Of a stretch of 64,000 nt of DNA, positions 35,780 to 63,002 are shown piece by piece; the first letter of the stretch is position 1; each line of letters begins with the position of its first letter. The position numbers and the translations under genes are program-made. A model generated the notes under the pieces. The model ran no database searches. It was not told the DNA's origin and saw only the letters and a program-made list of their open reading frames with translations. Origin of the DNA: Aphrocallistes beatrix (lineage: Eukaryota > Porifera > Hexactinellida > Sceptrulophora > Aphrocallistidae); contig OY725490.1 in NCBI GenBank assembly GCA_963281255.1, positions 6,572,001 through 6,636,000 of the forward strand, given 5' to 3'.

Positions 35780-37438
35780 ATGAACATTCTGCCTCACTCC
35801 TCTAACGATACTGGAGACCTCAAGAATAGTGTGTTGAAGCTAGTGCGAGAAGCTAAGCGCATGAAGCTAGAGGGGACGCTGGATCCAGACGGACTCATTA
35901 ACGGAGAAACGAAGTCACACCTTCCCGTACTGAGCCAAGCTCTCAACTCGTACTCTTTGCTACTCGCGAAATATCTGCACTCGAAAGGCTATGAACTGTT
36001 TGGTAAAACAGACTCGCGGTTTTTAGAGGTTGTCTACCGAATGTTACGCGACGAATTCAACTACAGACCTAAATTAACGAGACAGCAGTTCCTCACTGAT
36101 TCTGCTTTCATCGAACGCAAGATTCTATTCACCCTCGACCTTCTGAAACTCTGCCAGTCCAAGCATCAGGATCTGCAGCGGCTGAGTATCAAGGTGGCCA
36201 AGCCAACCACCAAACCCAAAGCAATAGATAAAGCCACACGACCGATCCGAATGCAGACCATCAAAGCTACGCAGTTGGATTCTGCGGATTTCCTCACCTC
36301 AGCACAGGATGAAATATTCCCCATCAGACCTGAGCCAGTTGTGACCACAGACCGCTTATTAAAAGCCTCAGCCAATTCAAGCCTAGCTCCTCTCTTCCAG
36401 CACAACATTCCAGTTCCTTCACAGCTGTTACCGCAATTTGATAATTCTCACCTCACCACACCATCAGATCCTGTATCAGTACACGATGATGAAATGCTCC
36501 CATCCCCCACCCCAAGACCTACCTCCTTCCCCACACTCGATTTCTTACACGACAGAGAACTTGACGTCACACCGTTACAGACCCCAGAGAAGCCTTCTAG
36601 AACCACAAAAACAGGACCGACGAGGGATGAGTTGAAAGAGGGAGTGCGGCGAATTCGTTTCCAGCTTGATCCCATCCCGGATATATCCAGTGAGGTGTCA
36701 GAAATAGAAGACATGCTATCAGACATAGCTCCAGAAGACCCGTTGCCTAAATGTGAGGATGAAAAGGTAGCTATAGCCACCTCAACAACTGGACTCTTTG
36801 ACTCTCCTCTACCTGAGAAAGTCGAAAAAGTTGAAAAACCATCTAAATCTTTTCACGCCCCATCGCCAAACATTTCAAATTTGGTAGAGCAGATGTCAGC
36901 TCGACTCGCTCTCCTCGAGACAAGATTGAAACACGTTGAGAGCACCCCGATTCCCCCGTTCAGCACTTCTCCCCCACCACAGGTGTCAACATCTGTTCCC
37001 ATCCCTCCATCCAGCTCTCCGACCATGACGTCATCACGTATTTACAATCCGCATAAATACTCAGATACAGATCCCATCTTTCAGAAACTGACAGGCAAAC
37101 TGACCACTTCGAAATGCTGCGCTTCTACCATATCTCCTTCACCATCTTTAGCCATTAGTCGCGAGCATTTTTCACCGCCATTATCCAAGAGAACTTTCAC
37201 AAATGATAGTCAATTGAGCAGAATAGAATCGGTTTTGCATAAGCATAATGCATCTTCAGTTTCTTCACTTTCTGACAGCCTATCTACCGAAATATCACAC
37301 CTTCCTCCTGCGTCACCTCCAACTCACGAGGATGAAGTGTTAACTGTTATGTTCAACTTGCGAAAAAGGGCAGAACGCGCCAGGGATATGCTAGAAACCG
37401 CGAATTCCAATCGCAAGAGGCTCCGCTACAAGTGTTGA
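35780..37438 (+). CDS. CEP44: Centrosomal protein CEP44
   Basis: About 552 aa from ATG 35780; the open frame extends upstream only through a TTG. The N-terminal ~130 residues form the CEP44 domain: GDLKNSVLKLVREAKRM, LPVLSQALNSYSLLLAKYL, DSRFLEVVYRMLRDEFNYRPKLTRQQF. This matches human CEP44 strongly (YKLLRDQFNYKPILTKKQF). The remainder is Pro/Ser/Thr-rich and probably disordered, with a short coiled coil near the middle (NLVEQMSARLALLETRLKHVE) and a helical C-terminus. CEP44 localises to the proximal centriole lumen and supports centriole-to-centrosome conversion. With TACC at 12.7 kb it is the second centrosomal gene here. Confidence 0.9.
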   Translation: MNILPHSSNDTGDLKNSVLKLVREAKRMKLEGTLDPDGLINGETKSHLPVLSQALNSYSLLLAKYLHSKGYELFGKTDSRFLEVVYRMLRDEFNYRPKLTRQQFLTDSAFIERKILFTLDLLKLCQSKHQDLQRLSIKVAKPTTKPKAIDKATRPIRMQTIKATQLDSADFLTSAQDEIFPIRPEPVVTTDRLLKASANSSLAPLFQHNIPVPSQLLPQFDNSHLTTPSDPVSVHDDEMLPSPTPRPTSFPTLDFLHDRELDVTPLQTPEKPSRTTKTGPTRDELKEGVRRIRFQLDPIPDISSEVSEIEDMLSDIAPEDPLPKCEDEKVAIATSTTGLFDSPLPEKVEKVEKPSKSFHAPSPNISNLVEQMSARLALLETRLKHVESTPIPPFSTSPPPQVSTSVPIPPSSSPTMTSSRIYNPHKYSDTDPIFQKLTGKLTTSKCCASTISPSPSLAISREHFSPPLSKRTFTNDSQLSRIESVLHKHNASSVSSLSDSLSTEISHLPPASPPTHEDEVLTVMFNLRKRAERARDMLETANSNRKRLRYKC

Positions 37439-41300: not shown

Positions 41301-44300
41301 TGCTACAGCTGTCATTGTAACCTTTGTCGTACAGAACAATATCAATGATGCGGATAATCAGGAAGCCAAAGCATGGGAGCAACAGTGAGTATCTTATCTG
41401 AGCCGTTTAAGCATAAAAATTGTTTGAAAAATTGAGGGCATTTAATTGATCTTTTTATGTTAATCTTTAAATCTTAAATAAATAGTTGATAAATAGTAAA
41501 ATAATAGTAATTAATAAATATAAAATGACTGAATCTATTTCTGTGTTTTAGGTATATTGCATATATGCAGAATTATACACGTTTTGGAAGCCGAAATAAT
41601 CTTACAGTCTCTTTCCTATCAGAGGTATGTTATATCTGACTAGTAAATCTTATTTTCAATTATTTTTAGTTTGCCAACTATACTATGTATAGTGTCCAAC
41701 TTCTGAAATGAGTGCTTCCCTTTTTTTAAAAATAATATATTTCTCTTAGAGATCTCTTGAAGACGAGATAAACCGAGAATCACAATCAGATATTGCTACG
41801 ATTGTTATTAGTTATGTCATCATGTTCGCCTATATCGTCATCTTCATTGGAAAGATACCTAACTACAAACATTTCTGCTACGACTTTCTAGTAAGTCCTC
41901 TAATCTATCGATCCTATTCTTAACAACCCATTTTACTGTATAATTTTCTTCCAGATTCGTAGTAAACTTTTCATTGGATTGTTTGGGGTACTCATTGTCA
42001 TCTTATCCGTGCTATCCAGTATTGGATTGGCTTGCTATTACGGAGAGAGTGTTACGCTGATTGTAGTGGAAGTGCTTCCTTTCTTGGTGCTCGCAGTGGG
42101 TGTAGACAACATCTTCATCCTGGTGCACTCAGTAGAGGTGAGTAGAACAGTAGTTTCAGAAACTCTTAGTTAGGAATTGCAACCTGTGTTAAACTGTATC
42201 TATTAGGATGAGTTGTCTGCACATTTCGAAGAGCCTACCTACAAGATAGTCGGGGTAGCTCTGAGCAAGGTAGCGCCTAGCATCACTCTCACTGCTCTAT
42301 CCGAGACGGTTGCCTTCTTTATAGGTAAGGGACACATCTCTAACTATCCATACGATACACTTTCACGTACTTAACTTCATTTCTTTAGGAGCAATATCTT
42401 CTATGCCAGCTGTGCGAACTTTCTCACTGTTCGCTGGCCAAGCCATCTTCATCGACTTCTTATTGCAAGTGAGTATTCTGATTTTATTATCTGTTATACC
42501 GTGTGTTGTATATATACGTCATTTGTTTTTAGTTATCAGTATTCGTCGCAATCCTATCCATTGACGTAGCCAGACAAAAGGTATTTGAATCTCTTTATCA
42601 GAAAGTTATTATATTGAAAATGAATTACAATCAATTTATCTTTTTCTAGCAAAGTCGTCCTGAACTGTTTTGCTGTGCTCGACTTCCACAACCTGAAGAC
42701 ATGGATCGTCAGGTGATTCTGAACAGTGAGAACGACAGCTGTCATCCTACCAATGTACTCGATGAGGGACTGATTCGATTCTTTATTCGAACTATCTACT
42801 CTCCTTTCATCTTATTCCCTCCAGTCAAAATCATTGTGGTGAGTATAGTATCTCCAATAATAAGTTAAAGAATAGAGATATCAGAAATATTTAAATTTTT
42901 TATGGTTGTTTCTAGATGATAGTTTTCATTGGAACTTTCTTGCTGAGTATTTACGCTACAGTTCATTTATCACTTGGGCTTGAGCAAACTCTTTCAGTGC
43001 CAAAGGTGAGTCGAATTTTGTTGGGGTTTTTTATGTCTATAATCTCTGTTAATATATCTTGAATTTAGGATTCGTACGTACTCAACTACTTCAATGATTT
43101 GAACACATACCTACATGTCGGATCTCCAGTGTATTTCGTGATAAAATCCGGTTACAATTACTCTACTCAGGAGGGAATGAATAATGTGAGACTACACCGA
43201 TCTTAATCCCATATACGTACGTAACTTCATGTGTTTGATTACTTTTCTTCTTATATAGATTTGCACACAAGCTGGATGCAGTAACGTTTCAATGTTGTCC
43301 CAAATAAGCGTAGACGTCAATAGTCCTGATTAGTAAGTAGTAATGATTCATTCTCTTTGTTTTACATTTTTTTGATCATTACATAATCCATTTTGTGTAG
43401 TTATCACATCGCTACAAACCCTAGTTCTTGGGTTGACACTTACATCGATTGGCTAGATCCATCCGTCTCTTGTTGCAGATTCCATAATGGAAATCACAGT
43501 AATTTCTGTTCTTATTCTGGTATGTTGCTTGAGTTTGATAATATTATACACCCTTAGTAGGATCTCGGGTTACGTTACAAAACTAAATTATTTTAATGAT
43601 ACCATAATAGTTAGAATCAGCTTAGTTTAAATAAATAGTGGTTGAATTAAAATCATTTGATTTGTATTACCTTTATTACAAGATGGGAGGAACCTACAGT
43701 AAAACCTTGGGTGTAAGCTTACTCGTTCAGTTCGTTTGTTTCTTTTTTGCTTCTGTTTTGAAGACAGAGAAATTTTACGACCTCGCTGGTTCTCTAACCA
43801 CAATTGGACTTGTCCTGCATAGTTACTTGTCAGGAAACAAATCTTGGCAACATTTGATCCAAACTGGTATGATCTTAACTTGGGCGACTCGTCTCGGTTC
43901 TTACCTGCTAACAAGAACTCTACTGGTTGGCGATTGGCGTTTCGACCGTATCAAGCATAAGCCTGTCATATTTTTCTTCTACTGGCTGGTACAAGGGGTT
44001 TGGGTATTCTTGAACCTACTTCCTAGCCTCAGTATGGAGAAACATCCGGTTACCGATGTGGTAATATCCAGGAGACTAATGATTGGATGGGGTTTGTGGG
44101 GGTTTGGTTTTCTCCTTGAGTCTATCTCTGATCTTCAGAAGTTCTTCTTTCGCATGTATCCTGAGAATGCTGACAAATGGCTCGATACAGGGCTATACAG
44201 TGTGATCCGCTATCCCAACTATCTGGGCGAGATTATACATTGGGTTGGTTTGTTCATTTCGGCTTCTGATAGCTTTACTTCAAAGAAAGAATATTTGACT

Positions 44301-47300
44301 GTCATTTCTCCTCTCTTTACCATTCTCCTACTCACCAGAATTTCCGGTATCCCACCCTTGGAGCTTCGTAATTATAACCGTTTTCGCGAGAATCAACAGT
44401 ATAAAGCGCACATCCGCAACACATATCTCATGATCCCTTACATCTACTAGACTTTATTTGATATGTATCATTCGTTGGATTATTTTACAAATTATGTGTG
44501 TTGTTTAATTGTGAAGTTTGTGTAAAACCTTTAGGATTTTAGTTTAAGTTAACTTACTACTTTGTATTGACTATTTTAAATTTAAATTTACTTTGATTCA
44601 TGGAGTGTCTACCATTGGGGTAGACACGGGTTGTCTCATTTTGCGAAACTTCTCACTCTGATATTTCAAATTAGGACTGGAAATTAGTTACAAATTAGCA
44701 TTTTTCTTTGCAAATATGTTTTAATTATGTATCTTCGAGCAATGTGTTCCTACCGATTAAATCTATGAGTATTTACTTCGTATGGCTATACTTTAGATGC
44801 AAATTTCTCTACCTCATGTACTCCCTGCCTATCAACAACCCAAACTCGACCAGATCCAGACCAGTTCGTGAAGTATCTCCCTTGGTTCCTTTCTGACATT
44901 CCTGGAACTACTCAATCATCTTGTACCAAAGGGTGAGCTATTAGTCATAAGTATTTTTTGTTTGAGATACAACTTTTTAAAAAATATATGTCGGTTATTT
45001 CTATAACAGACAATCGAAATAGTTTTGCTTGAGCAAATGAATTTGCTGAAACAAGCATTCTGGTGAAGTCTGACATACGTAAACGAATTAAGTACAAACA
45101 ACAGTAAACTTGCTGTCCGCAATTACAAACAGATTACTCCATATGACTAATTAGGGATAATATATATATTATATTATATTATATTATTCATTAACATGAT
45201 TTGTAATTAGATCAGGGAGAGTTTCTTCTGGGAAAATAATCAAGTTGGATGATATAAGATGTCTCTGATCATTTGAGAATAGTTTATATAAAAAAAGATA
45301 AATAGTTCTTATTGTATTCAATTATAAATTATTAAATATGGACTTCATCACTAGCACCATTAACTCGGTATACGTAGGATTGTTTGGATTTTTCGTAGTA
45401 CCTGGTATTCTCCTTGCCTTATTTTGGAGTGGATTCGTTGCAAAACGTCTGATTGACTATTATCGCGATTACAGAAAGTTGTTAATTAATTGGAATCGAA
45501 ATCCAGATGAGTTTTATAACGATCTCTTCAACTGCAAAATCAAGCTAGTCCTCTACTCATTTTTTCTCGCCATCGTCTTACCTGAGCTTGTAACCATTTT
45601 CAGCTATTCAACTGGACTCCTCATTTTCAATTATAGACCAACTTTGGGCCTCAATTCATTTATTCTTCAGAACATCTCTTTAAATTGTCCCGAATTCGGA
45701 GGTGAAGTCTGGGAGTTTGAACTTGTCAATCCTATTATCGCGTTCTTCATGGGCTTGGGGGACGTAGCGATTTGTTTAACTTTGATCTTGTTGATAGGCC
45801 TTCTGAAATTCATCTTTCTAGCTTATCAGAGTATTAATAATTATAAGAGTGTGAAAAATTTCTTGATTACCTACTCATTTTTCCCTCCTTTTCTTCTGGT
45901 CCTTAGTATAGCCCCGCACACCCAGATATTGTCCAAAATATTGACGCCTGCAATCATGATTTATTTAATCAAACTGCTTTTGCAACATAAGAAGCAATAT
46001 TTCCTCATTTTGAAATGGAGATGTGATGACGCGTTCATCCTACGGGAAGAGTCCAGTTACGCTAGACATTCACAAGTTAGAAGAAACTCGAAATTATCGT
46101 TCAACCTCCTTTTTGCATCATTTATTTTCTTCGCCATTACTATGTGCATAAATAAGTTCAGTTCTCTAGCCGCAATGTTACTCACAGAGCAGTCCAAGCT
46201 CGTGATGAGAGCTTTTAACCTAGATCTCAACTTAGCTTTTCTTGACTGCAGGTTTCAGAATGTAATTTATAAGATTGAATACGTAGCTGACCTTATTAAT
46301 CCATTTCTGGCGCTGGTAGGATCGGTTCTCTACTCGCTTCCCCTATTTGGCGTCACACTGGGTTTTCTCGTGTTTACTCTGTACAGAAAGGCCAAACCAC
46401 GGCAAACCAGATTCGACGGGAACGCTTCGTATCTTAGCTCCAACGCTTAAGTTGAGGAGTTCATTTCATTATTATTTTGCTATTCCAGTTTGGCTTAAAT
46501 TTAAAACCTCCTTGTCTAATATTACCCAATTAATTTGTATTGAATAACTATCTTTCTACTCTCGCATTTGTTGTGGCTATGCATATTAGTACAAACAATA
46601 CATAGTATTATATTGTAAACATATTTAGTTGCAATAATATTTCCCCTGGCATGAGTTGGGGATATATCCTATGGTTTATTGCACAACTTGTTTATCGTTA
46701 TTTGCTAAACTTTTGAACTCTCAAATATCGCAATCACTTTTATATGCTTACAAAGTTTCGTCTTTATAAATAGTTTCAATTACAAACTTTTCATTAAATT
46801 GATATCACACTAAATTCGGCCCAAATGGTTTCAAACGAACATATAGTAAGGATTGCATATATTTCTTTATTCGCCATCATAGGAATACCATGCACCATTA
46901 TGCTATTTTTCTGGTTGCTTTTTATCATATATCGCATTCGGGATCTCATCAAAAAATATAACAAACTCCGCTTGTATTCAAAATTGTATCCTGATTCCTA
47001 TTTGAAATTCTTCAACTGTAAAGTCAAACTTATTCTCTATTCCTTCTTTTTCTTTCTTTTGATATCTGAGTTAATGTCCGCTTTTGGTTTCTGTCTCGGT
47101 TCTCTTTTGCATATTAATTACTCTCCAATCCCTTCCAAGAATCTTAATCACATTCCGCTCAACTGCACCAATGACATAATCGAGGTATGGGAAGCTGAGT
47201 TGGCTGATCCATCTGTAGCCGTTTCTTATGCGTTTAACCATACATCTTTATGCATGATAGGAATTATGTTGGTTGGATTGTTGAAGTTTATCTTCTTAGC

Positions 47301-50300
47301 TTATCAGAATGAGAGGAATTTTAAAGATGTCAAGTTTTTCGTAATAACAAACCTGTTCTTCCTTCCCATTATTTTTGCTCTTTGTGTTATCCCACAGACA
47401 CAAATAATCTCAAAACTATTAACACCTATATACCCCTGCATTCTGTTCTTTTTGATTTTGAAGCATCGGAAGCAGTACATCCTCATTTTGAAATGGAGAT
47501 GTGATGATGCTCAGTTAGCTCAGGATGAAATTAGCTACAGATATCATTCGAAAATTAAAAGTAATTCGCTAATTTCCTTCAACATTATCACTATGGGCTT
47601 TTTCATATTTTTAATTTCGAACATTCTAAGCATGTTTCCTTCCTTATTTCCAATGTTACTGACAGACAAATCTAAATACGTTATGAGGGCTTACAACATG
47701 GATCTGAACTTGGCGTTTTTAACCTGTCCTATTCAGCAGATCATCTACAATGCACGGATAACCATAGACAATCTGGTGCCATTCATTGTACTGCTTGGAA
47801 CCGTCGTCTACACTATGCCTATATTTGTCGTTTCAATTGGTGTACTCATTCACTACGTTAGTCCCAATTATAGTCGCGTTGCACTTAATTTTATCCGACC
47901 TGGAGGGATCATTTGAATGTATTAATATTGCATTTTGTGGTCATTTATCTTACATCCTATTCTTAATTCTATTCATTTATTATTTCCCCTTTTCTTTCTT
48001 TTGTATCATTTCATTAAATTAAGTAATTTACTTGGTCTTTTTATCCTATTTGGGTAATAGTTTTTTCAATAAAATTAACTGACAAATGTCTAATAAGTTT
48101 GTTCAAATGTTATTTTTAAAATACGTAGGTTATCTGATGAGAAATATTTTTATAATGCTCTTACCAAGAATTACCAATTTACTTTTTTAAATTACAGTGC
48201 TTACTGCTTACAATTAAGTATTTCGTATGTAACTTGTTGAAAAAGTCCATGTAGAAACCAAGTTTGATAGATTCAATTTTTCCCAGAGAGATTACAGTAT
48301 TCACTAATTTATGTCATTGGCATTCCGCTCTTGATCCTTGCCTTGTATCACCTCTGTGGGATATGCGTATAATAAATATAGATGTCTCAGAAATTCTACC
48401 CATGTTATATCCATCTGATTTCTCTTAGGATTTTCTCAACTGTAGACTTAATGATCGTATTTTCTTTCTTTTTCTCTCTTCTAATTTCTGAGATCATATC
48501 TTTGATTGCGTTAAATAATGCTTTTGTTTTGTGTTATGCAAAGTAAACCATCAAGGAGATAATACGTAAAATCTGATCATTTCTCCTTGGTAGGAATTTC
48601 TCTGCATATTAGCATGCTCTAAGAATGACACATTTGACTGTGAACTAGCTCTGTGAAATGATGAGCTATAGTGGTGCTTAGCATGATTTTCAAGACAATT
48701 TACAATATTGAACTACACATCTAATTTGAACTCAAGATTCCAGAAAATGAGAGAAGGAAGTGTTTGCTTAGAATAGCTATTTGAATGCAGTATTTAATTA
48801 GTTTTCAAGATGATGTCTGCAGTAACTTGAGCGCCATAAATGTCGAGGTTTCTCTTTGATACGCAGTATTCGTATTTAACCTTCATCATCGATTTTCTAT
48901 GCTTGAATACGTAGTATAAATATAATATCTGTTTAGAATCAACAAGAATCTCTAAAATTTGCTTAAAAATGCATCTACTACTCCAAATTTGTAATTTTAT
49001 TTATTTTCTCTCAGCTGTCATATTTGTAACACCATGTCTGGTGTTTACAACTTTTTGGTTGGTATATATTATATATAGAATTTTTCAACTATACAAGAAA
49101 TATAAAAAACTCCGTCTGTATTCAGAGCTATATCCAGCTGATTTCTACATGGACTTTTTCAACTGTAAAGTTAAGTTTGTCATATATTCCTTTCTGCTCT
49201 TCATCTTGATATCTGAGTTGGTATCTGTGGTAGGGTATTCTGCTGCATCGCTTTTATTGATTTCACAATCCTCTTATCAGATTCCTTCGCCATATCCTCT
49301 TTACATTCCTTTGAATTGCACTGACGGCATTATTGAGTTGTGGCAGGTTGAAATGTCTAATCCGTTGGCAGCGCTTTTTTCTGCAACTGGAAACATTGCG
49401 ATTTTAGTGTTGTATTTTTTGTTGACTAGTCTCATGAATTTTATATTCCTAGCTTACCAGCATAAGACTAATCATATCAAAGTGGGAAGTATCTTCAAAA
49501 AGTTATCTTGTATTACGCCTCTTCTATTTATACTTTCTTCAATCCCCCAAGCACAAATCTTAGGAAAAATATTGATACCATTTTTTGCCATCATATTTTT
49601 TCTATTGTTTTTAAAACACCAAAAACGCTATGTCCTCATTCTGAAATGGAGATGCGACGATGCTTCAATATTACAAGATAAAATTAGTTTTACATATCAC
49701 TCTAAGATTAGGAGAAACTCTGAAATCTCAATTCATTTGGTAGCTGTTGGCTTAGCTATATTACTACTTGCCATGGTGCTGACACAGTTCACTTCCCTGC
49801 TGCCGATGTTACTTACAGAAAAGTCGAAATACTTGACAAGAACCTTCAGCCTAGATCTTAACCTATCATTTCTAGATTGCGCCGGCCAACAAATTATCTA
49901 CTTTATTTGCTCTGTCATAGACATGGTCGTACCATTGTTAGTTCTAGTTGGTTTTATTATATACAATCTTCCTCTGATTGCTGTCTCCTTCAGTTTAATT
50001 GTTTTCTATTTATGTAAAAGATGCTGGAGTGTTGAATCCTTTTACTTCAGAGTTTAGGAAGCACTCAATAATTATTTTATCACATGTTTTATGATCTCTA
50101 TACATATTTGTGAAAAATCATTAGTTTTTAAATAAGTTGAATCTATGAAATTTGTTAGTGTTCTCGAAATTGGCGCCTGAACTAGGTCCTCATTACACAA
50201 TGGACGCGTCCTATAAGTTGATCATTTCCGGGTGGGCACGTGCCCCTAAAATAACCTAGTCACGTCTAGGTCTCTTTGTTATCACTGAGCTAGATGGCGT

Positions 50301-53300
50301 AGTATTGAATCGATATATTATTTAACATTTAACAGTATTATTCATCCATTACAGACATGAATAGCTTGGTAAATTGCATTGAATATTATCAAATGCTAAC
50401 AAATACTAACTAGTCTACCCGAAATTATCCTTGTACTTCCAGTATAAATACCATGCTCTTACAACTGTAATAATAATAATAGTCACTAGCAACGACTAGA
50501 ATGGATATATCTGATATACTTGGCTATACTTATATCGGTTGTTTTGTCATATTTGGGGCACCAATTTTTATTCTCATGTTTTCATGGCTTGGCTATATTT
50601 CATACCAAATTAATGTGTTTTACAAAAAATATAAGAAACTTCGTTTTTATTCAGAGCTTTATTCTGATTTCTACATGGACTTTTTCAATTGTAAAGTAAA
50701 GCTAATCATCTATCTTTTCTTTCTATTCCTTATATTCTCTGAATTGATGAGTATAATTGGTTATTCTGTTGGAACTCTTTTATTGAACTTTTATTCCCCA
50801 GCTATAGAGCCCACCCTCTATCCTCTCTTGATTCCACTGAATTGCTCTGATCCTGTAATCGAATTATGGCAGTTAGAAATAGCGAATCCATTAGTAGCAT
50901 TTTTTTTCGGCGTTGGAAATATGTCGTATTGTGCTGTAAACATATTGTTGACAGGCTTATTTAAATTCATTTTTCAAGCTTATCAGAATAAAAGTGACTT
51001 TAGGAGCGTGAAAAAATTCCTATTCATATCGTCATTTTTCGGTCCATTCATTTTTATTCTCTCCGTAATTCCTCAGACACAAATTATTTCAAAAATATTT
51101 ACCTCTATGTATTGTATTATTTTATTTATTTTGGTTTTGAAATACAAGAAACAATTCTTCCTCATTTTGAAATGGAGATGTGATGAATTTTTCATACAAC
51201 AGGACACCATTAGCCACACCTATCACTCAAAAATTAGAAGAAATTCAAAACTCTCTTTGAATTTTGTTGTTTTTGGAAGTTTTCTTTTTCTGTGTTCGAT
51301 TATTCTCACCTTAATCCCCTCGTTTCTTTCAATGCTACTCACAGAAAAATCGAAATATGTGACAAACACCTTTAATTTGGATATAAATTTGTCATTTCTC
51401 GACTGCCGTGGTCAACAAATATTCTATCATATCCGGTCCTTTTTGGACAATATCGTACCATTGTTTATATTAGTTGGCATGACTATATACAGTTTGCCCA
51501 TGTTTATATTGTCACTCGGCTTGATAGCATGCTATTTCTATAACAGATGTAAGCGTGTTGACACCCGTTATTTTCACTTTAAAGGAAACGCAGACTACTT
51601 TATCCACAACCATGAATGAGTTGACCGCCATTTGTGGCGCTTGTGCTTTTGTAATTCCAGAAAAATCATAATTTGTGTGTACTATGTTAATGGGAATAAT
51701 TTTTTTAAGATGTTTACTTTTTTTTAAGATGTTTACTTCTATTATTCTATTTTGTTAAGTTTATTGTTTGCCATGTAGTGTTTCAGCTTTTAGATTAATG
51801 ATTATAAGATTAATGATTAAAATTTTAAGACACTGTATCCCACGTTATATTTTAGTTAAGGCGTAATTCAGGGGAAAACTCTTGTTTTTTTCCGGAACTT
51901 TTAGTTCCTGAAAGCACTTGAATCAGTGTGTATTCTTGATTAGATAATTTAATGAGATCATGTGCTTATTTCCTTAGAATTGAACGATCTCAGCATTAGT
52001 CGGACAATACAAAATAGTTGCTAATTTTCCTGGAAAATAAGTTTGTACTGGTTTGCATAATTATGTAACCAAATTGTTTTATCTATGCTGAGGTTAATTT
52101 AGCTCTCTGCATCACGCAAGAACCATCCCGGGTTTAAACCAAAGGCTATTGTGTTTCATTATATATAGTCATTTTAAAGTGAAAAGTAAACCAGTACTTA
52201 GATTTAGTAATTGGAAATGGATTTAAGCGAAATAGAACTGTTTCTGTATATTTCATTCTTGATCCTGGTCGGAATCCCTTACTTAATCCTTGTATCATTT
52301 TGGTTGCAATTTATTTTAAGTAGAATCTACAAGTTCAACAAAAATTATAAAAAATTTCGTTTTCTTTCGAAACTTGATCCCGAGTTATGCATAGACTTTT
52401 TCAACTGTAAAATAAAGCTAGTTATCCATGTGTTCTTGCTTTTTCTCCTTCTATCTGAGATAATGTCTGCTGTTGGATACACTATTGGAACTTCTTTAGT
52501 TAGTTATTTTTCTTTATCTCATATGTCTCCTCAAAGTTTGAAGATCCCTTTAAATTGTACGGACGGAGGATTTGAGTTGTGGCAGTTCGAGTTGACTAAT
52601 CCATTTGTCGCATTAGTTTATGCGGTCGGGAATGTGTCTGTCGTTTTTATTTTTGTTTTGTTGATAGGTCTTTTGAAATTTATCTTCTTAGCTTATCAGA
52701 ATAAGACCAATTTTAAGAGTGTCAAAAGTTACGTTATCTATTCATCGTTTTTGCCCCCATTCTTTATTGCTCTGTACACAATCCCACAGACTCAGTTATT
52801 AGCCAAAGCGTCGTTTATTATTTGCGAGATAGTTGTGCTGTTTTTACTTTTCAAGCATAAAAAGAGCTATTTTCTCATTTTAAAATGGAGATGTGATGAT
52901 GCCTTCACACAACAGAATAGCATCGATTTCGCATATCACTCGAGAATTAGAAGAAATTCAAAATTTTCTTTCAACATGGTCTGTGTTGGCTTCGCTATTA
53001 TTGTAATTGCAATGCTGCTGGACAGCATTCCCTCCATTCTCTCAATGTTATTTACAGAAAAATCAAAATATGTAACAAGAACTTTCAACTCAGATGTAAG
53101 TTTAGCTTTTCTCGACTGTCCAAGCCAGAAGATGATCTATCGTTTCCGCTCTGTTTTTGACACGATAGTACCCTTGTTAATGCTGGCTGGAATGAGTATT
53201 TATACTCTCCCGTTGATTGGGGTTTCGGTGGGTTTGATGATAAGATATGTTTATTACAAATGTAAGAGGGTTGACTCCGAATACTTCCGCGTTAAAGGAA

Positions 53301-56300
53301 ATGTACAGTACTTAATTGATGAGCAAGACTGAGTCACTGGGACGATTTTGTTTTGTAATGTTTTATAATTTAAATTTTGGAGTTTGAATTCTTTTTTGTT
53401 AATATGTATAATAATTTTTATGATAATTGTTCTTTAAGCGAATTTATAACTCATACTTTAAAGTCTTTTGACTCTGCTTAATCGGGACAAAATATTGACT
53501 CCCGAGGTACCCCGATTAAGCGGAGTCGACTGCTGTAGTATTATAATATTTGAAGGGAAATTTCCACTCGAACTGTATAATCCGATTTTTACCTAGAAAT
53601 ACACACGACACTGTTATTAAGATTTATTTCCATTTTAGATTACGTCATATTTGTTATTACTGATTGGGATTGTCCGAATTATAATATTCAGGGATACAAT
53701 GTCGTGTAATACATTCGAGTATTGTGACTTGTCATTTCAGTGATTCTATGAGTCTATGCCTTGTTTGGAATTAGTTCATCTTTTCAAGTGTTCTGCTAAG
53801 CTCTGTGCAAAAATTTGGATTTTTTTAATATAATTTCTACTTTTAGTGGTTAGCACATTCTGTCATTTCTATTTTTAATTGGTTAGCATTTCAATGTTCA
53901 TAGTCTGAGGAGTGCAATGTTGATTGCATATACATATATGGTCACTATTCATTAATTAAATAAAATAATCTTGTTTGGCGAAAGTGTCCCTCTTACTGTA
54001 TGCCTTCTAATTAATGCATTTCTATAACTATCACCTTCTTGCATTACCTTCAATATAAATAGTCACAAGACAACTAACTTTAAATTTACAATAATACCAC
54101 ATAAAGCTTTAAAATGCAATTTATTCAAATCTTGAACTATTGTTACGTATGTATTTTTTCACTGATTGTAACTCCTTGTGTGATCTTAATATGCCTTTGG
54201 TTGATGTTTATCTTTAAATCGCATTTATAAGTTTTACAAAATATATCGTACATTCCTCCAATATCCAGAGTTTAATAACCACGAAGACTTCTTTAACTGT
54301 AAAGTTAAACTTATCATCCATTCTTTCTTACTCTTTCTTTTGATATTTGAGTTAATATCTATGATCGGATATGTCGTCGGATCTCTTTTATTTCTATCAT
54401 TTTCCTCTGACCACGTACCTTATCTGTACTCTCTCCACATTCCTCTGAATTGCACGGATGGTGGATATGAATTGTGGCAGCTTGAAATGGATAGTCCATT
54501 GGTTGCCTTTTTTATCGGGGCTGGAGATATATTTGTGTGTGCTGTTGGCATTTTATTGATTGGTCTTTTGAAATTTATAAATCTAGCTTACCAAAATGAT
54601 ACATTTTTTGGTGACGTCAAAAAATTCTTGATTAAATCAGCAGTTTTTTCAACACTTATTTTCGCACTCTACCTAATCCCACAGTTTAATATGCTTTCCC
54701 AAATACTAACACCTTTGTTTGGTGTTTTCTTGGTTATTTTGATTTTGAAGCATCGAAAGCGGTTCTTCCTCATTCTGAAATGGAGATGTGATGATGCCCG
54801 CATAGCACAGGATGGGTACGCGCATCACTGTCGAGTTAGAAGAAATTCACAAATCTCCTTTAACATTATGATCGTGGGCTATATAGTACTACTGTGCGCC
54901 ATGTTCTTAAACGTACTCTCTCCTTTACTCTCAATCTTATTTACAGACAAGTCAAAGTATGTAACCAGAACTTTTAACTCGGATCTAAGCTTGGCATTTC
55001 TAACTTGCCCAAATCAACAGATTATATTTCAGATCTGCTCTGCACTAGGCATCGTCGTGCCATTAACGGTGTTAGTCGGTATGATTATATATGCCTTCCC
55101 TCTGATTGCCGTCTCTGTGGGATTAGTCGCTTACTACTCTTATCACAGATGTAAGAGTGTTGAGTCGCATTACATACGATTTGAAGGAAATGCGCATTAT
55201 TTCGTCGCTGACTGAAGCTGTGTATCACCTCTGTTTCTGTTACAGCCGCATTTTTTCCTATTTTACATAACTATATTGTGTACATTATGAAATACAAATA
55301 TTAAAAAGTCCCATGCTCCACAACTTCAGCATATCCTATGTTAGTTATATGTATGCTGATAATGTATGCTTATTTGGCTATTTTTCCTCTTTTTTTGACA
55401 ACTATGCACGTGCTTACTTTTTTTCTATTTCCCCGCTGCTTCTGTCCAATTTAATTTTCTTCTAAGACATATGACTATCTCAGCATTATTTTATTTTTCC
55501 TCATTCAAATGCGTTACTGAACTATATAAATGCCAGTAAGCGTTCACACTCATCATAATTCAATTTCATAAGTCGACTGAGATGAATATAAACACTCTAA
55601 ATTTGGTCTACGTCGCTATCGCTTCGATGATAATAACACCTTATGTCCTCTTGGCTGCTTTCTGGTTAGGATTTATCGTTTATCGCATTTGTATCCTCAA
55701 CAAAAAATATACAAAACTTCGTCTGTATTCACAGCTACAAGTATATCCGTCTGATTTCTACATAGACTTTTTCAACTGTGAAGTTAAGCTTATCATATAT
55801 TTCTTCCTGCTTTTTCTTTTGATATCTGAATTGATCTCTTTTCTTGGCTACAGTATTGCATCTCTGTTATTAGTTTCGCAATCATCTGAGATGCCTTCTC
55901 TCCACATTCCTCTAAATTGTACTGACCACAGGTTTGACTTGTGGCAATTTGAAATATCTTATCCATTGGCGGCATTTTTTCGCGGGACAGGTGATGCGTT
56001 TATATGTCTTGAGGGAATTCTCCTTATTGCCTTATTGAAATTTATCTTCATTGCTTATCAGAATAAGAATAATTTTCGGAGTATTAAAGTATTCTTGCTC
56101 AAGTGTTCGCTTTTACCTCCAATGCTTCTTGCTATTGGTACAATCCCACAAACACAAATTTTAGCCAAGTTATTCATTCCAATTTTCGGTATCATCCTCT
56201 TATTTTTGCTTTTGAAACATAAGAGACGCTACTTCTTAATTTTAAAATGGCGGTGTGATGATTCTTTTATGCTCCAGGACAACGAATTCCTTTATCACTC

Positions 56301-59300
56301 GAAAGTTAGAAGGAATTCACGTATATCTTTCAACATACTAGTTGCTGGTCTTAGTGTAATGATATTCGCGATGATCTTGAACATGCCAGCCTCCTTATCC
56401 TCAATGCTACTCACAGACAAGTCCCAATACGTAACCAGAACTTTTAATTTTGATTTAAATCTGGCGTTTCTTAGCTGTGGTTCGCAACAGATTATCTACC
56501 AAATCCGCTCTGTTCTAAGCACCATTATACCTATGTTAGTGTGTGTTGGAATGGTAATCTACACTTCTCCTATGATCGGAGTTTCAATCGGGATTTTAGT
56601 ATGCTCTCTCTATCGCTCTTTTAAGCGAGTTGATTCCGATTACATTCGATTGGAAGGAAACGCAAATGACATACTCAATAGATAATTTTGTTTGCATTTT
56701 GCAAACAACTTGTGTTTTGTTTTGTTTTTACCTCTTTACTTCATTATGTATATTTTAAGTTACTTTTTAAGTGTTTATTTTCTATTCTAGTACAGTATCA
56801 TTGATAAATATGTTAACTCTCCACTAAAAACATATTTCATTAATTGTTGATCAAGTTGTTTTATAGTTTTGTACAATATTCAAGGCTATAAATTATGTGA
56901 TATTAATTGATGATATGAGTATAAATGTTAAATACAAGTACAGTACACATAAGACATAAATTATACAGATGCCACTTTCTAATTAGAAGTAGTTAGTTAC
57001 TTGAAAGATTGAGCAAACACAGAAATACTATAAACTGGCTGTAGTATATTATTGATCACTCTACCCTCCTATACAGCCGGTACCCCTTTTCATAGTTTGG
57101 TGCATAGGTGATTGATGGCCATTTTTTCAATCTTAATTTACCTCCAAATTTCTTAATGACCATCTTAATAGTGACGCATGTCAATGGTCCGAACCATGCT
57201 AGTAGTGCCAATTGAATGAGCACGATTTGGAAGAGTGAATAATATTCCCCGAAAACATAATCGTTAAAAAATAACTGTTGTTTGCATGTGTGAAAAATCG
57301 TTGGAATTCTCAGCCCGTACAGATTATATAAAATTTCGTTTTTCGGTGCAATTACTGCTGTGACTATATCTTTGAAATCTTCCACCATTTCTGCTGTGAT
57401 TACTAGGAACAACGCCAATAAGGTTAACATCCGAAAATTCTGGAAAGTTCTGCGTAATTGTACATGGTATCTGTATCGCCGTTTCCCTTGAACATCCTCT
57501 TCATATGCCAGGTCATTGCATACCCATCGTAATACCATTGATACATCATTGAAACTTCTAACTGTGTTGATATAGTATACAGTACAGATAATTGGAATGG
57601 CTGCTCTCTGTAGAAGTTTCGTGTGTGGAAGTATTCCGAGAATTAGTATCAGGGAATTAAATATTAAGGCTTTGAGCGACCAGATTATGATGCTAGTGTA
57701 TCGCTCGTCATGTCTGTAATATTTGAATGCAACTTTCAAGACGATGATGAAGAGTGCCAATTCGTTTAGTATTCCGAACTGTCCAAGAGAGAGAAAAGTA
57801 GCTATTACTGGATTTATTATTTCCGCTTCCCAAGTCCAAGCAACCTCCGTTCTATTCATACAGTCTGTGTATGCGAATCCTGGATAGATGTCCACGAAAT
57901 TCCAATCATAAGAGGAGCACAGTCGTGTTCCGATTACATAGAAAACTTCTGACAATTCGTTTATCAATATGAACATTAGAAGCCAATAGACTTTATAGAG
58001 GAACCTGTTTTGTTTGGCCAAAGCCTGGATTTTCGCAGAGCAGGAATAGCATTCTTGTTTCTCCATATGCGTATAGTTTTTATAAAATACGTGTAAATAA
58101 CGTACTATAATCGCAATCCAAATTAAATCTAGCGTGAAACATAGCGTGAAACTCAACCCTTGGAACCAATGAACCAATACAATTATAATTTTATAGGAAT
58201 TATTAGACATTCTTATTGTAATTTTTTAGCACTTTTTGTTTAAATAGGTGCGCATAAAGTTGCATAAAATCATTTGAAATATTTTGTTGTTGTTAATCGA
58301 AATATTACATCAAGTCAAGCTGTCCACTGGGACAACACTATACTCACTAATATGACGTCATATGTTATAATTACTAGAATGATATGGTGTGTGGATATTT
58401 TACTTTATAATTTCCTTTTTGCAGAGGACGCGCAGCTTATGGTGCAGCAGTCGATATCAACAAAGATACAAATGTAGTTGAAGGTAATTTCTATGAACAA
58501 ACATCATATTTGAAATATTCCTTCCAAGTTAGAATGAGTTATATAATCGTGCTACTTCATATTTTAGCATCTTATTTCATGACTTATCACACTATATTAC
58601 GAGATTCAGTTGAGTTCACTGATGGACTCCGAAAGGCTAGAGCTATTAGCGAGAAGCTCTCTGAAACACTTAACATGACAGTCTTTCCATACAGGTAACG
58701 TTTGATAAAATAATTCCAAATAGTAATGATGAGAATATATCTCATTTCTCGTTCCTCCTTTAGTGTGTTTTACGTCTACTACGAGCAGTATTTAGAACTC
58801 CCGAATCGAGCTATTCTAACTCTCTCCATATCTGTTGGTAAGAATCCATTCCTATCACCACAATCTGCCACTAGGCTTGGGCGTAGTGTTTTCATTTCCT
58901 GTCTTATAGGGTCGGTTTTTGTTATGACATTTGTGCTGATCGGATTTAAACTCTGGTCCACTATTCTGGCTACGCTGACAGTCGTGATGTTTCTGATTGA
59001 TATGATGGGACTGATGTACATATGGGATATCTCTCTCAATGCCCTTGCTCTTGTCAACCTCACAGCGGTAAGATAGCACACTGAATTTATTTCGTGAAAG
59101 CTTTTGTTGAAATGTTAATAGTACAGGTTTGTATTTATATTTGCATTATTCTGTAGTCAATCGGGATTGCAGTCGAGTTTGTGTCTCACATCGTTCGCTG
59201 GTTTGCTTATTCCGATGCTCCCACTCGGCATCTGAGAGCGCACGACGCGCTGGTTAATATGGGATCTTCAGTCTTCAGTGGAATCACTTTAACCAAGTTT

Positions 59301-60353: not shown

Positions 60354-63002
60354 ATGACTTCTCTTTTGCACAACTATTTCTTCATTGCATTGACTCTCTC
60401 TTCTATCCTCAAATCATTTTCTCATCTTTTTGCATGCTCCGTTGACAAATGTACCATAGTGGACCTGAATGGAGAATGGGACGTTTCTAACGATAACGGT
60501 AGTATATCTTTGAAGGGGTTAGTTCCTGGGCAAATTCATCTTGACCTCTTGAAAGAAGGCCTCATCCCTGAGCCTTATAAGGGCTTCAACGATGTTGAAT
60601 TAGCTTGGATTGCACTTGAGAAAAAATGGGTTTATTCAAAGAACTTCACTCTACCTTTCGATTTGATCGATTCCCAATATAATTTGCTATGGTTTGAAGG
60701 GATTGATACAATTGCTAGTATCTTCCTCTCCAATGAGAAATTTCAAGAGAAAACTTTTCTCTTCAACGCTTCAAATCACCATCGAGAATATGTTTATGAT
60801 GTCGCTGGAATGCTTGTCGACGGGAGTAATCTAATAACTGTCGAGTTCTACAGCGCTGCCACATTATCACACAAATATGCCCTTGAATACCCTTATTTCG
60901 TAGATCAGCAATTCACTTACTTCAAAAATACAAACAGGAATTTTGTCCGTAAAGCTCAGTCAGATTTCGGGTGGGATTGGGGGCCTGCATTTGTACCGGT
61001 TGGTCTATGGAAGAGTGTGAGCATAATCAGTTTTAGCGATTTCATAATATCCAATTTCGTCCCCATTGTCTACTGGAATGAAACAGAGAATGCTTTCGAG
61101 ATACAAATGTCAATCTATATAACAGGAGACCAATTTAGAGGGAAATTCGTCGCGAGTCTGGAAAGCATTGCATCAGTCTCTGAAACCTATCAATGCGTTG
61201 ACACTGATTGTGAAGTGAAAATGCAGATGCTAGTGCCAGTAAATAAAGTGGAACTCTGGTGGCCTAACGGGTATGGTGACCAGCCTCTATACACAGTATC
61301 CATCGAGATTATGACTGAGGATGAGATGGAGGCGAAAACCTCGAAACGAATCGGATTTCGAAAGGTTGAGTTGGTGCAAGAGAAATATGAAGGAGAAGAC
61401 GGGTTGAGCTTTTATTTCAAAATTAATGATAGACCTGTTTTTGTCAAGGGTTCTAACTGGATACCAGCTGATGCGTTTACTGGGCGAGTGTCAGAAAAGC
61501 ATATTAACCTCACTTTATCATCTGCTGTCATCTCACATCAGAACATGATACGCGTCTGGGGCGGTGGGATTTACCAGCAAGACGTTTTCTACGATCTATG
61601 CAACCAAAAGGGGCTAATGGTATGGCAAGAATTCATGTTTGCATGCTCTTTGTACCCAAGAGACGTGAATTTTCTTCGGAATGTAGGAGAGGAGATCAAA
61701 CATCAGGTTAGAAGACTGGGTCACCACCCTTCTATCATCATGTGGAGTGGGAATAATGAAAATCAAGACTCCGCACTTTTAAAGGGTACAGGCGCTTTAG
61801 TGGACTACGCTACCCTCTACGATGACGTAGTCAGACAGACACTTTATGGAGAAGACACTTCACGCCCTTTCTGGCCTTCCAGTCCTTCTAACGGAGACCT
61901 TGTCATAGACATTTCACGTGGACTTTATATACAACGATGGGGCGAGTCCCAAAATCCGATTTACGGTGATATTCACCATTACGATTACAATAGCGTATGC
62001 ACTGATGTGAGTAAATTTCCGAGGCCCAGATTTGCTAGTGAGTACGGCTATCAAAGCTACCCTTCCCTCTACACACTTCATGACGTCATCAACGATTCTT
62101 CCGACCTAGATAACGATTCCCCACTGATGTTACACCGTCAGCATCATCCTAATGGTAACCCCCAACTTGAGGCACAAGTTGGTATGCATTTTCTCTTGCC
62201 TAATAACACAGACAAAGCGGCTAGGTTTGGTAACTTTGTTTATCTAACACAAATTGTGCAAGGAATTTGCATGCAAGCGCAAACTGAACATTATCGCAGG
62301 ATTAAGGATGAGGTGGGGCATACAATGGGAACGCTTTACTGGCAGTTAAATGACATTTGGCAAGGACAGAGTTGGGCTTCCATCGAGTATAGTGGAAGGT
62401 GGAAGATACTTCACTATTTAGTGAAACGTTTCTACGCACCTATGATGGTTTCAGGATACCATGTCAAGAATGATTTCTATCTCTATGTGATAAATGATCA
62501 GTATCTTGATTTCAACGTTAGTGCAGATCTCTCAGTCATGCGATGGAGTGGTGAAGTTGTTTCGGATGATAGCAGATTGGTCCCTGTTAAGTCATACACT
62601 TCTACTCGCGTTTTAACTTATTCAAACTTAACCGAAAAATGTCCGCTACAAGAGTGTTTTGTCTATATGGAACTTCTTGATTTCTCAAACAACGATGTTT
62701 TAGCTAAAAATTTCTACTTTCCAGTGCCTTTCAAGGATGTTTCTTTGCCAAAGGCTCAAGTTAAAGTTGAGAAGTGTTCTCAAGCCGGTGAAAAGGAGTT
62801 TAATATATCCGTATCAGCTACAAAGTTAGCACTCTATGTGTTTCTAGAGACCAGTTTCCCTGGTTATTTCAGCGATAATGCTCTGATCATGAAACATGAG
62901 ATTGTTCATGTTGTGTTCTATGCATGGGCGGATGTGAACGAAGAGAATCTCTGTTCTTCCATCACAGTCAGAAGTGTTGCTAGTGTTTACACAGATAATT
63001 AA
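60354..63002 (+). CDS. MANBA: Beta-mannosidase (lysosomal, GH2)
   Basis: 882 aa from ATG 60354, single exon (human MANBA 879 aa). The N-terminus is a signal peptide (about residues 1-30, LLHNYFFIALTLSSIL...). The GH2 sugar-binding domain (GWDWGPAFVPVGLWKSV) precedes an immunoglobulin-like domain and the TIM barrel. The acid/base Glu is E469 in MWSGNNENQ and the nucleophile E563 in FASEYGYQSYPS. GTLYWQLNDIWQGQSW is also conserved. It removes beta-linked mannose in the last step of N-glycan core degradation in lysosomes. It sits 0.7 kb behind NPC1 on the same strand, another lysosomal gene, possibly coincidence. No intron in 2.6 kb. Confidence 0.96.
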   Translation: MTSLLHNYFFIALTLSSILKSFSHLFACSVDKCTIVDLNGEWDVSNDNGSISLKGLVPGQIHLDLLKEGLIPEPYKGFNDVELAWIALEKKWVYSKNFTLPFDLIDSQYNLLWFEGIDTIASIFLSNEKFQEKTFLFNASNHHREYVYDVAGMLVDGSNLITVEFYSAATLSHKYALEYPYFVDQQFTYFKNTNRNFVRKAQSDFGWDWGPAFVPVGLWKSVSIISFSDFIISNFVPIVYWNETENAFEIQMSIYITGDQFRGKFVASLESIASVSETYQCVDTDCEVKMQMLVPVNKVELWWPNGYGDQPLYTVSIEIMTEDEMEAKTSKRIGFRKVELVQEKYEGEDGLSFYFKINDRPVFVKGSNWIPADAFTGRVSEKHINLTLSSAVISHQNMIRVWGGGIYQQDVFYDLCNQKGLMVWQEFMFACSLYPRDVNFLRNVGEEIKHQVRRLGHHPSIIMWSGNNENQDSALLKGTGALVDYATLYDDVVRQTLYGEDTSRPFWPSSPSNGDLVIDISRGLYIQRWGESQNPIYGDIHHYDYNSVCTDVSKFPRPRFASEYGYQSYPSLYTLHDVINDSSDLDNDSPLMLHRQHHPNGNPQLEAQVGMHFLLPNNTDKAARFGNFVYLTQIVQGICMQAQTEHYRRIKDEVGHTMGTLYWQLNDIWQGQSWASIEYSGRWKILHYLVKRFYAPMMVSGYHVKNDFYLYVINDQYLDFNVSADLSVMRWSGEVVSDDSRLVPVKSYTSTRVLTYSNLTEKCPLQECFVYMELLDFSNNDVLAKNFYFPVPFKDVSLPKAQVKVEKCSQAGEKEFNISVSATKLALYVFLETSFPGYFSDNALIMKHEIVHVVFYAWADVNEENLCSSITVRSVASVYTDN

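Follow-up and report, generated by a model that had tools for sequence, protein, structure and literature searches.

In a 64,000-nucleotide window from the glass sponge Aphrocallistes beatrix (positions 6572001-6636000 of the 7.0 Mb contig C3, in a genome of 100.5 Mb and 28 contigs), a tandem array of genes for putative seven-transmembrane (7TM) proteins lies within intron 18 of the cholesterol-transport gene NPC1. The explanation that we favour, with a probability of about 0.8, is that an NPC1 intron captured an intronless 7TM gene bearing its own promoter, that this gene multiplied in place, and that the array is spliced out of NPC1.

NPC1 across the array

NPC1 (38346-59649, plus strand) was rebuilt from splice sites, and the model is supported by its matches to PDB and Oopsacas. 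The model has 25 exons and 1318 residues with zero internal stops, and all 24 introns are bounded by GT-AG. A PDB search gave a single continuous match to human NPC1 (residues 18-1299, 1030 bits). The top protein-database match by a wide margin was NPC1 of the glass sponge Oopsacas minuta (67% identity over 99%), and the remaining matches, among those listed, were 41-44% identical.

The introns measure 60-167 bp in 21 of 24 cases, the exceptions being intron 5 (919 bp), intron 17 (1277 bp) and intron 18 (44933-58424, plus strand), a GT-AG intron of 13,492 bp in phase 2, about 64% of which is occupied by open frames. The exons on either side, 18 (44797-44932, plus strand) and 19 (58425-58483, plus strand), were placed by the splice model and a multi-species alignment. 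They meet without a gap when NPC1 is aligned with Oopsacas, Dysidea, a fish, Xenopus and Haliotis, and in the same alignment the exons downstream of intron 18 are about as conserved as those upstream. A family search of the genome found the NPC1_N domain at one place only, the locus itself, and NPC1 is a conserved single-copy host, its copy number being judged by this domain alone. Because the junction is gapless, both sides are conserved and NPC1_N occurs at one place, NPC1 is very probably one working gene spanning the array. The conservation implies that exon 18 would be joined to exon 19 in transcripts.

A sequence-only reading of the window had joined exons 18 and 19 in frame in phase 2 and had taken the roughly 13.5 kb between them for a single intron. 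Both claims hold: the intron runs from GT to AG, the joined protein reads through and the junction is in phase. The same reading gave the sister introns as mostly 60-130 bp; they are short, as it said, over the wider range given above. Its gene of 24 exons and 1342 residues is replaced by the rebuilt model.

AATAAA occurs 5 times on the sense strand of the intron and 32 times on the opposite strand. A depletion protecting NPC1 was considered and rejected, as shuffling explains the counts. On the sense strand of the whole intron 10.0 were expected, and 5 or fewer occurred in 6% of dinucleotide shuffles; the non-coding part has 3 against 5.0 expected (26% of such shuffles). The strand imbalance arises largely because the coding sequence is T-rich. 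A complete single-exon DUF1295 gene (149 bits) was found within NPC1 intron 17, at 43683-44450, so that nested genes are present in two adjacent NPC1 introns.

The nested 7TM genes

Six of the eight genes in the intron are intact and lie on the plus strand, with 362-372 codons each: g1 (45338-46450, 370 residues), a single-exon gene, g2 (46825-47916, 363 residues), g3 (48969-50057, 362 residues), g4 (50501-51619, 372 residues), g5 (52217-53332, 371 residues) and g7 (55582-56685, 367 residues). The end of g3 looks slightly shortened because likeness to its neighbours extends 24 bases beyond the g3 stop codon. In g6 (54214-55215, plus strand) the N-terminal part is in another frame, and the longest frame with an ATG is 54361-55215 (284 residues). 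The inverted gene g8 (57056-58210, minus strand, 384 residues) is divergent.

Pairwise identities were 47-53% among g2-g7, 40-44% between g1 and g3, g4, g5 or g7, and 19-27% between g8 and the rest. In BLAST, g1 was nearest to the outside relatives P0007-P0009 (44-45%). The ratio of nonsynonymous to synonymous substitution rates (dN/dS) was 0.13-0.32 in the 15 of 21 plus-strand pairs with estimable dS, where dS above about 1.5 is unreliable, and dS was saturated in all six pairs involving g1. By these ratios and the saturated pairs, the array members fit old copies under purifying selection.

A possible relic between g2 and g3 (47917-48914, plus strand) is marginal. Its best profile score was 3.4 bits; an unrelated intron gave 3.0, and the best of 60 shuffles 3.3. 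Its DNA alignments from the gene start were matched by 4 of 100 shuffles each for g2 and g3, and by 8-90 of 100 for the other five genes. With both measures close to the shuffle controls, the relic was not accepted as established. The gene content first read from the sequence therefore stands for six intact genes, one frameshifted gene (g6) and one inverted gene (g8), and is weakened for the relic.

Predicted fold and family assignment

The 7TM proteins reached no Pfam cut-off (0 of 12 aligned proteins), and the same was true of relatives from elsewhere in the genome (0 of 4). No PDB sequence matched the family profile, and phage records gave no match. When g4 and g8 were modelled, the predicted structure was a seven-helix bundle like that of G protein-coupled receptors (GPCRs), with the N-terminus outside; charge bias also predicts an outside N-terminus for g4. 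Seven helices, the N-terminal orientation and the fold of the GPCR superfamily are thus present by prediction, and a 7tm Pfam match is absent. The structure-comparison lists re-rank Foldseek's own matches and cover the families within those matches.

Class A GPCRs are marked by DRY, CWxP and NPxxY motifs. Over 33 sequences a DRY-like motif was found in one (ERY directly after helix 3 of g8), CWxP in none and NPxxY in none; on these motifs the proteins are not of the rhodopsin type (class A). The N-terminus lies inside in the insect odorant/gustatory receptor superfamily. Membership in that superfamily was rejected, since the proteins have no Pfam match to its models and the g4 N-terminus is outside by charge bias.

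The models suggest that the 7TM proteins may function as receptors. An unlikely alternative, and the one that survives best, is that they are other seven-helix membrane proteins such as channels or transporters. It would agree with the missing Pfam and PDB sequence matches and with the lack of CWxP and NPxxY in 33 of 33 sequences, and a common fold shows no function.

A genome-wide family and its association with NPC1

With g4 as the query the family was found at 106 places, of which eight lie in the intron. Identity to g4 was 45-52% for the remaining plus-strand intron genes, 23% for g8, and 19-31% over shorter stretches for places outside the intron. A relative from contig C9 used as the query gave at least 107 places, mostly single open frames of about 370-420 codons; the number is a lower bound, as 107 of 442 first-look candidates were scored. 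A 33-sequence tree grouped the intron genes of the plus strand with the outside relatives P0007-P0011 in one clade (100/99), which g8 joined at 99/97 on a long branch. Twenty relatives elsewhere in the genome stood apart from this clade; ten of them are near copies of each other and two more pairs are 84% identical. These close copies indicate that other branches are recently expanding and that the NPC1 clade is old. On this tree the intron genes are an old offshoot of a single-exon family spread across the genome.

The identities to g4 and the clade bear out the view from the sequence alone that a receptor-like family expanded within NPC1. The term "orphan", applied there to the 7TM genes, is apt in that no described family takes them in; it does not suit genes whose wider family occupies more than 100 genomic places.

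Big clusters of the family were seen on C1 at about 10.4-12.1 Mb and on C13 at about 4.07-4.28 Mb; they comprise dozens of places, most of them with 42-55% identity to the C9 query. On C9 (3846001-3873200) a minus-strand cluster of 7TM genes nearly identical to one another lies amid plus-strand exon-like open frames, one with an SH3 domain. It is a possible second nested array, but was not accepted as one, because the flanking plus-strand frames could not be shown to form one gene. The flanks on C12 gave no sign of a spanning host gene.

Linkage to NPC1 was followed through the protein database, which gives for each protein cluster the size of the longest contig holding it. The NPC1 exon-3 frame of the window and six 7TM proteins (g2-g7) share a contig size of 683,317 bp, as expected of one locus. 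P0009 and the NPC1 exon-3 frame P0133 have the identical contig size of 910,792 bp, as do P0010, P0011 and the NPC1 exon-3 frame P0135 with 705,029 bp. Three of the five outside relatives, on two contigs, thus have a contig size equal to that of an NPC1 frame, and two of five do not. Sizes equal to the base are very unlikely to arise by chance and therefore point to NPC1 linkage on two other contigs. The 7TM-NPC1 linkage is probably old, and the genes in these other assemblies may also be located inside the intron. The linkage suggests that the arrangement is old rather than accidental. Two 7TM lineages already in the common ancestor are only suggested, because P0011 falls outside the group of g1-g7 and P0007-P0010 at a weak fork (83/60). 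NPC1 exon 3 is 54-60% identical to seven glass-sponge-like sequences that are 56-85% identical among themselves, which suggests that the source animal branches outside the other glass sponges sampled.

It is doubtful that the receptor clade has been kept in the NPC1 intron since early glass-sponge history because its position matters, through joint regulation of NPC1 and the array. If it were so, receptors tuned to sterols or lipids in the same cell, or passage of the NPC1 polymerase choosing a receptor, would be examples in an animal without neurons. There is little likelihood that the array was inserted recently, for instance as a retrocopy from the dispersed family, and expanded in this species only. 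The family is mostly single-exon and dispersed, and the available part of PMC10282587 proposes retrotransposition of single-exon genes as a main breaker of synteny in a glass sponge. However, identity to g4 is no more than 19-31% for outside matches, saturation is reached or nearly reached at synonymous sites, and relatives in other assemblies are on contigs sized identically to NPC1-bearing ones.

Probable promoters of the nested genes

In 6 of the 7 intron genes and in 16 of 20 relatives elsewhere, TATAWA starts 40-70 bp 5' of the ATG; nine control windows of the same width gave 0-1 of 7 and 0-3 of 20. The boxes of the intron genes are all on the plus strand, at 45287-45292 (-51, g1), 46765-46770 (-60, g2), 48915-48920 (-54, g3), 50443-50448 (-58, g4), 52160-52165 (-57, g5) and 55525-55530 (-57, g7), and the majority of all boxes are at -51 to -63. 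The four relatives lacking a box have short open frames (281-352 residues), and their starts may for this reason be misplaced. Each 7TM gene is probably its own transcription unit with its own promoter wherever it is located, and could therefore live inside the intron of another gene. On this sequence evidence the 7TM genes would be transcribed and the NPC1 intron spliced.

The boxes also bear on whether the plus-strand genes are promoterless and are cut, operon-like, from NPC1 pre-mRNA with trans-spliced leaders. The NPC1 strand carries 7 of 8 genes, and leader sequences are reported on 4% of Aphrocallistes long reads (PMC10282587, available part). We nevertheless consider this mode of expression improbable, as the TATA boxes stand at a fixed distance, in relatives elsewhere too, and g8 is on the opposite strand.

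Proposed origin of the array

We propose that an NPC1 intron acquired a gene for a GPCR-like membrane protein that had no introns and carried its own promoter. This gene would have multiplied by tandem duplication in place, leaving one copy inverted, one now frameshifted and possibly one decayed; we infer the order of capture, duplication, inversion and frameshift. NPC1 would be transcribed through the array and intron 18 spliced out, and transcription of each 7TM gene would be driven by a TATA promoter of its own, about 50-60 bp 5' of the ATG.

Several observations weigh against this explanation. The contig sizes of P0007 (1,375,190 bp) and P0008 (475,438 bp) match no listed NPC1 exon-3 frame. 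No 7TM relative was found among the annotated Oopsacas proteins in the database; that annotation may have missed nested genes, of which 83 are counted for Oopsacas in the available part of PMC10282587. There is no TATA box at the expected place of g8. Foldseek alone gave a best E of 0.11, the class A motifs are nearly absent, and the g1 pairs are saturated in dS.

That the array splits NPC1 into unjoined halves, a broken or two-part gene, is very improbable. Intron 18 is about 100 times the size of most sister introns, and nested genes in humans reportedly interfere with splicing and polyadenylation of the host (PMC3192792, available part), but each half is open and conserved, exons 18 and 19 meet in phase at good splice sites, and a second NPC1_N copy was not found in the genome. 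An assembly false join placing the array between the NPC1 halves is scarcely credible, since the flanking exons fit in phase, NPC1-7TM linkage recurs in other assemblies, and the NPC1 exon-3 frame and g2-g7 also share one contig size of 683,317 bp besides lying on C3, the two contigs being perhaps not independent.

Neighbouring genes

At 35780-37438, upstream of NPC1, lies a single-exon gene in which a CEP44 domain (118 bits) was found. Adjoining NPC1 at 60354-63002 is a single-exon gene of 882 codons, which we take to resemble beta-mannosidase. Short tandem repeats form a long array at L044:1183-3740 that reads through without stops in several frames of both strands.

Comparison with known systems

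No published report of a 7TM array in an NPC1 intron was found in the literature searched, mostly without full texts, and the family is described nowhere in that literature. In Aphrocallistes vastus, 2432 nested genes (12.4% of genes) are reported (PMC10282587, available part). This related animal likewise has many single-exon genes and tandem clusters, but the cluster identified has AIG1 domains, and the available text names neither NPC1 nor a 7TM family and contains neither "GPCR" nor "receptor". The Rhodopsin-like GPCRs of Amphimedon are also a large sponge-specific set of seven-helix receptors (PMC4302439, available part). That set was collected by Pfam, whereas the present family falls under every Pfam cut-off; the two are set apart by description, not by sequence. 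In the part available, the Oopsacas genome paper (PMC10280926) covers G proteins and GPCRs but names no such family. The locus exposes a large GPCR-like family missed by all Pfam models, in animals that conduct electrical signals without neurons, and allows a test of how correct host splicing is compatible with seven nested genes on the same strand.

As several paralogs in one intron of another gene, the array is an intron-nested paralog cluster. In insects such clusters are formed by TipE genes in CG18675 and GMC oxidoreductases in Flo-2 (PMC3240667, available part). The TipE cluster also lies inside one intron of a conserved gene and has been kept for about 350 million years. However, TipE genes encode insect sodium-channel auxiliary subunits and have a cross-species order, whereas the sponge genes encode GPCR-like proteins; the sponge array has more copies, one of them frameshifted, and its nesting is known here from one assembly. 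The GMC oxidoreductases are one family expanded in a large intron of a membrane-lipid gene (flotillin-2), but they are enzymes, not membrane receptors, in another host gene and another phylum. Given these insect clusters and the richness of nesting in glass sponges, the NPC1 array is a striking new instance of an arrangement already known. It is a clear and apparently long-lived case of a receptor-like family growing within an intron of a conserved gene, and it comes from a group that often has nested genes.
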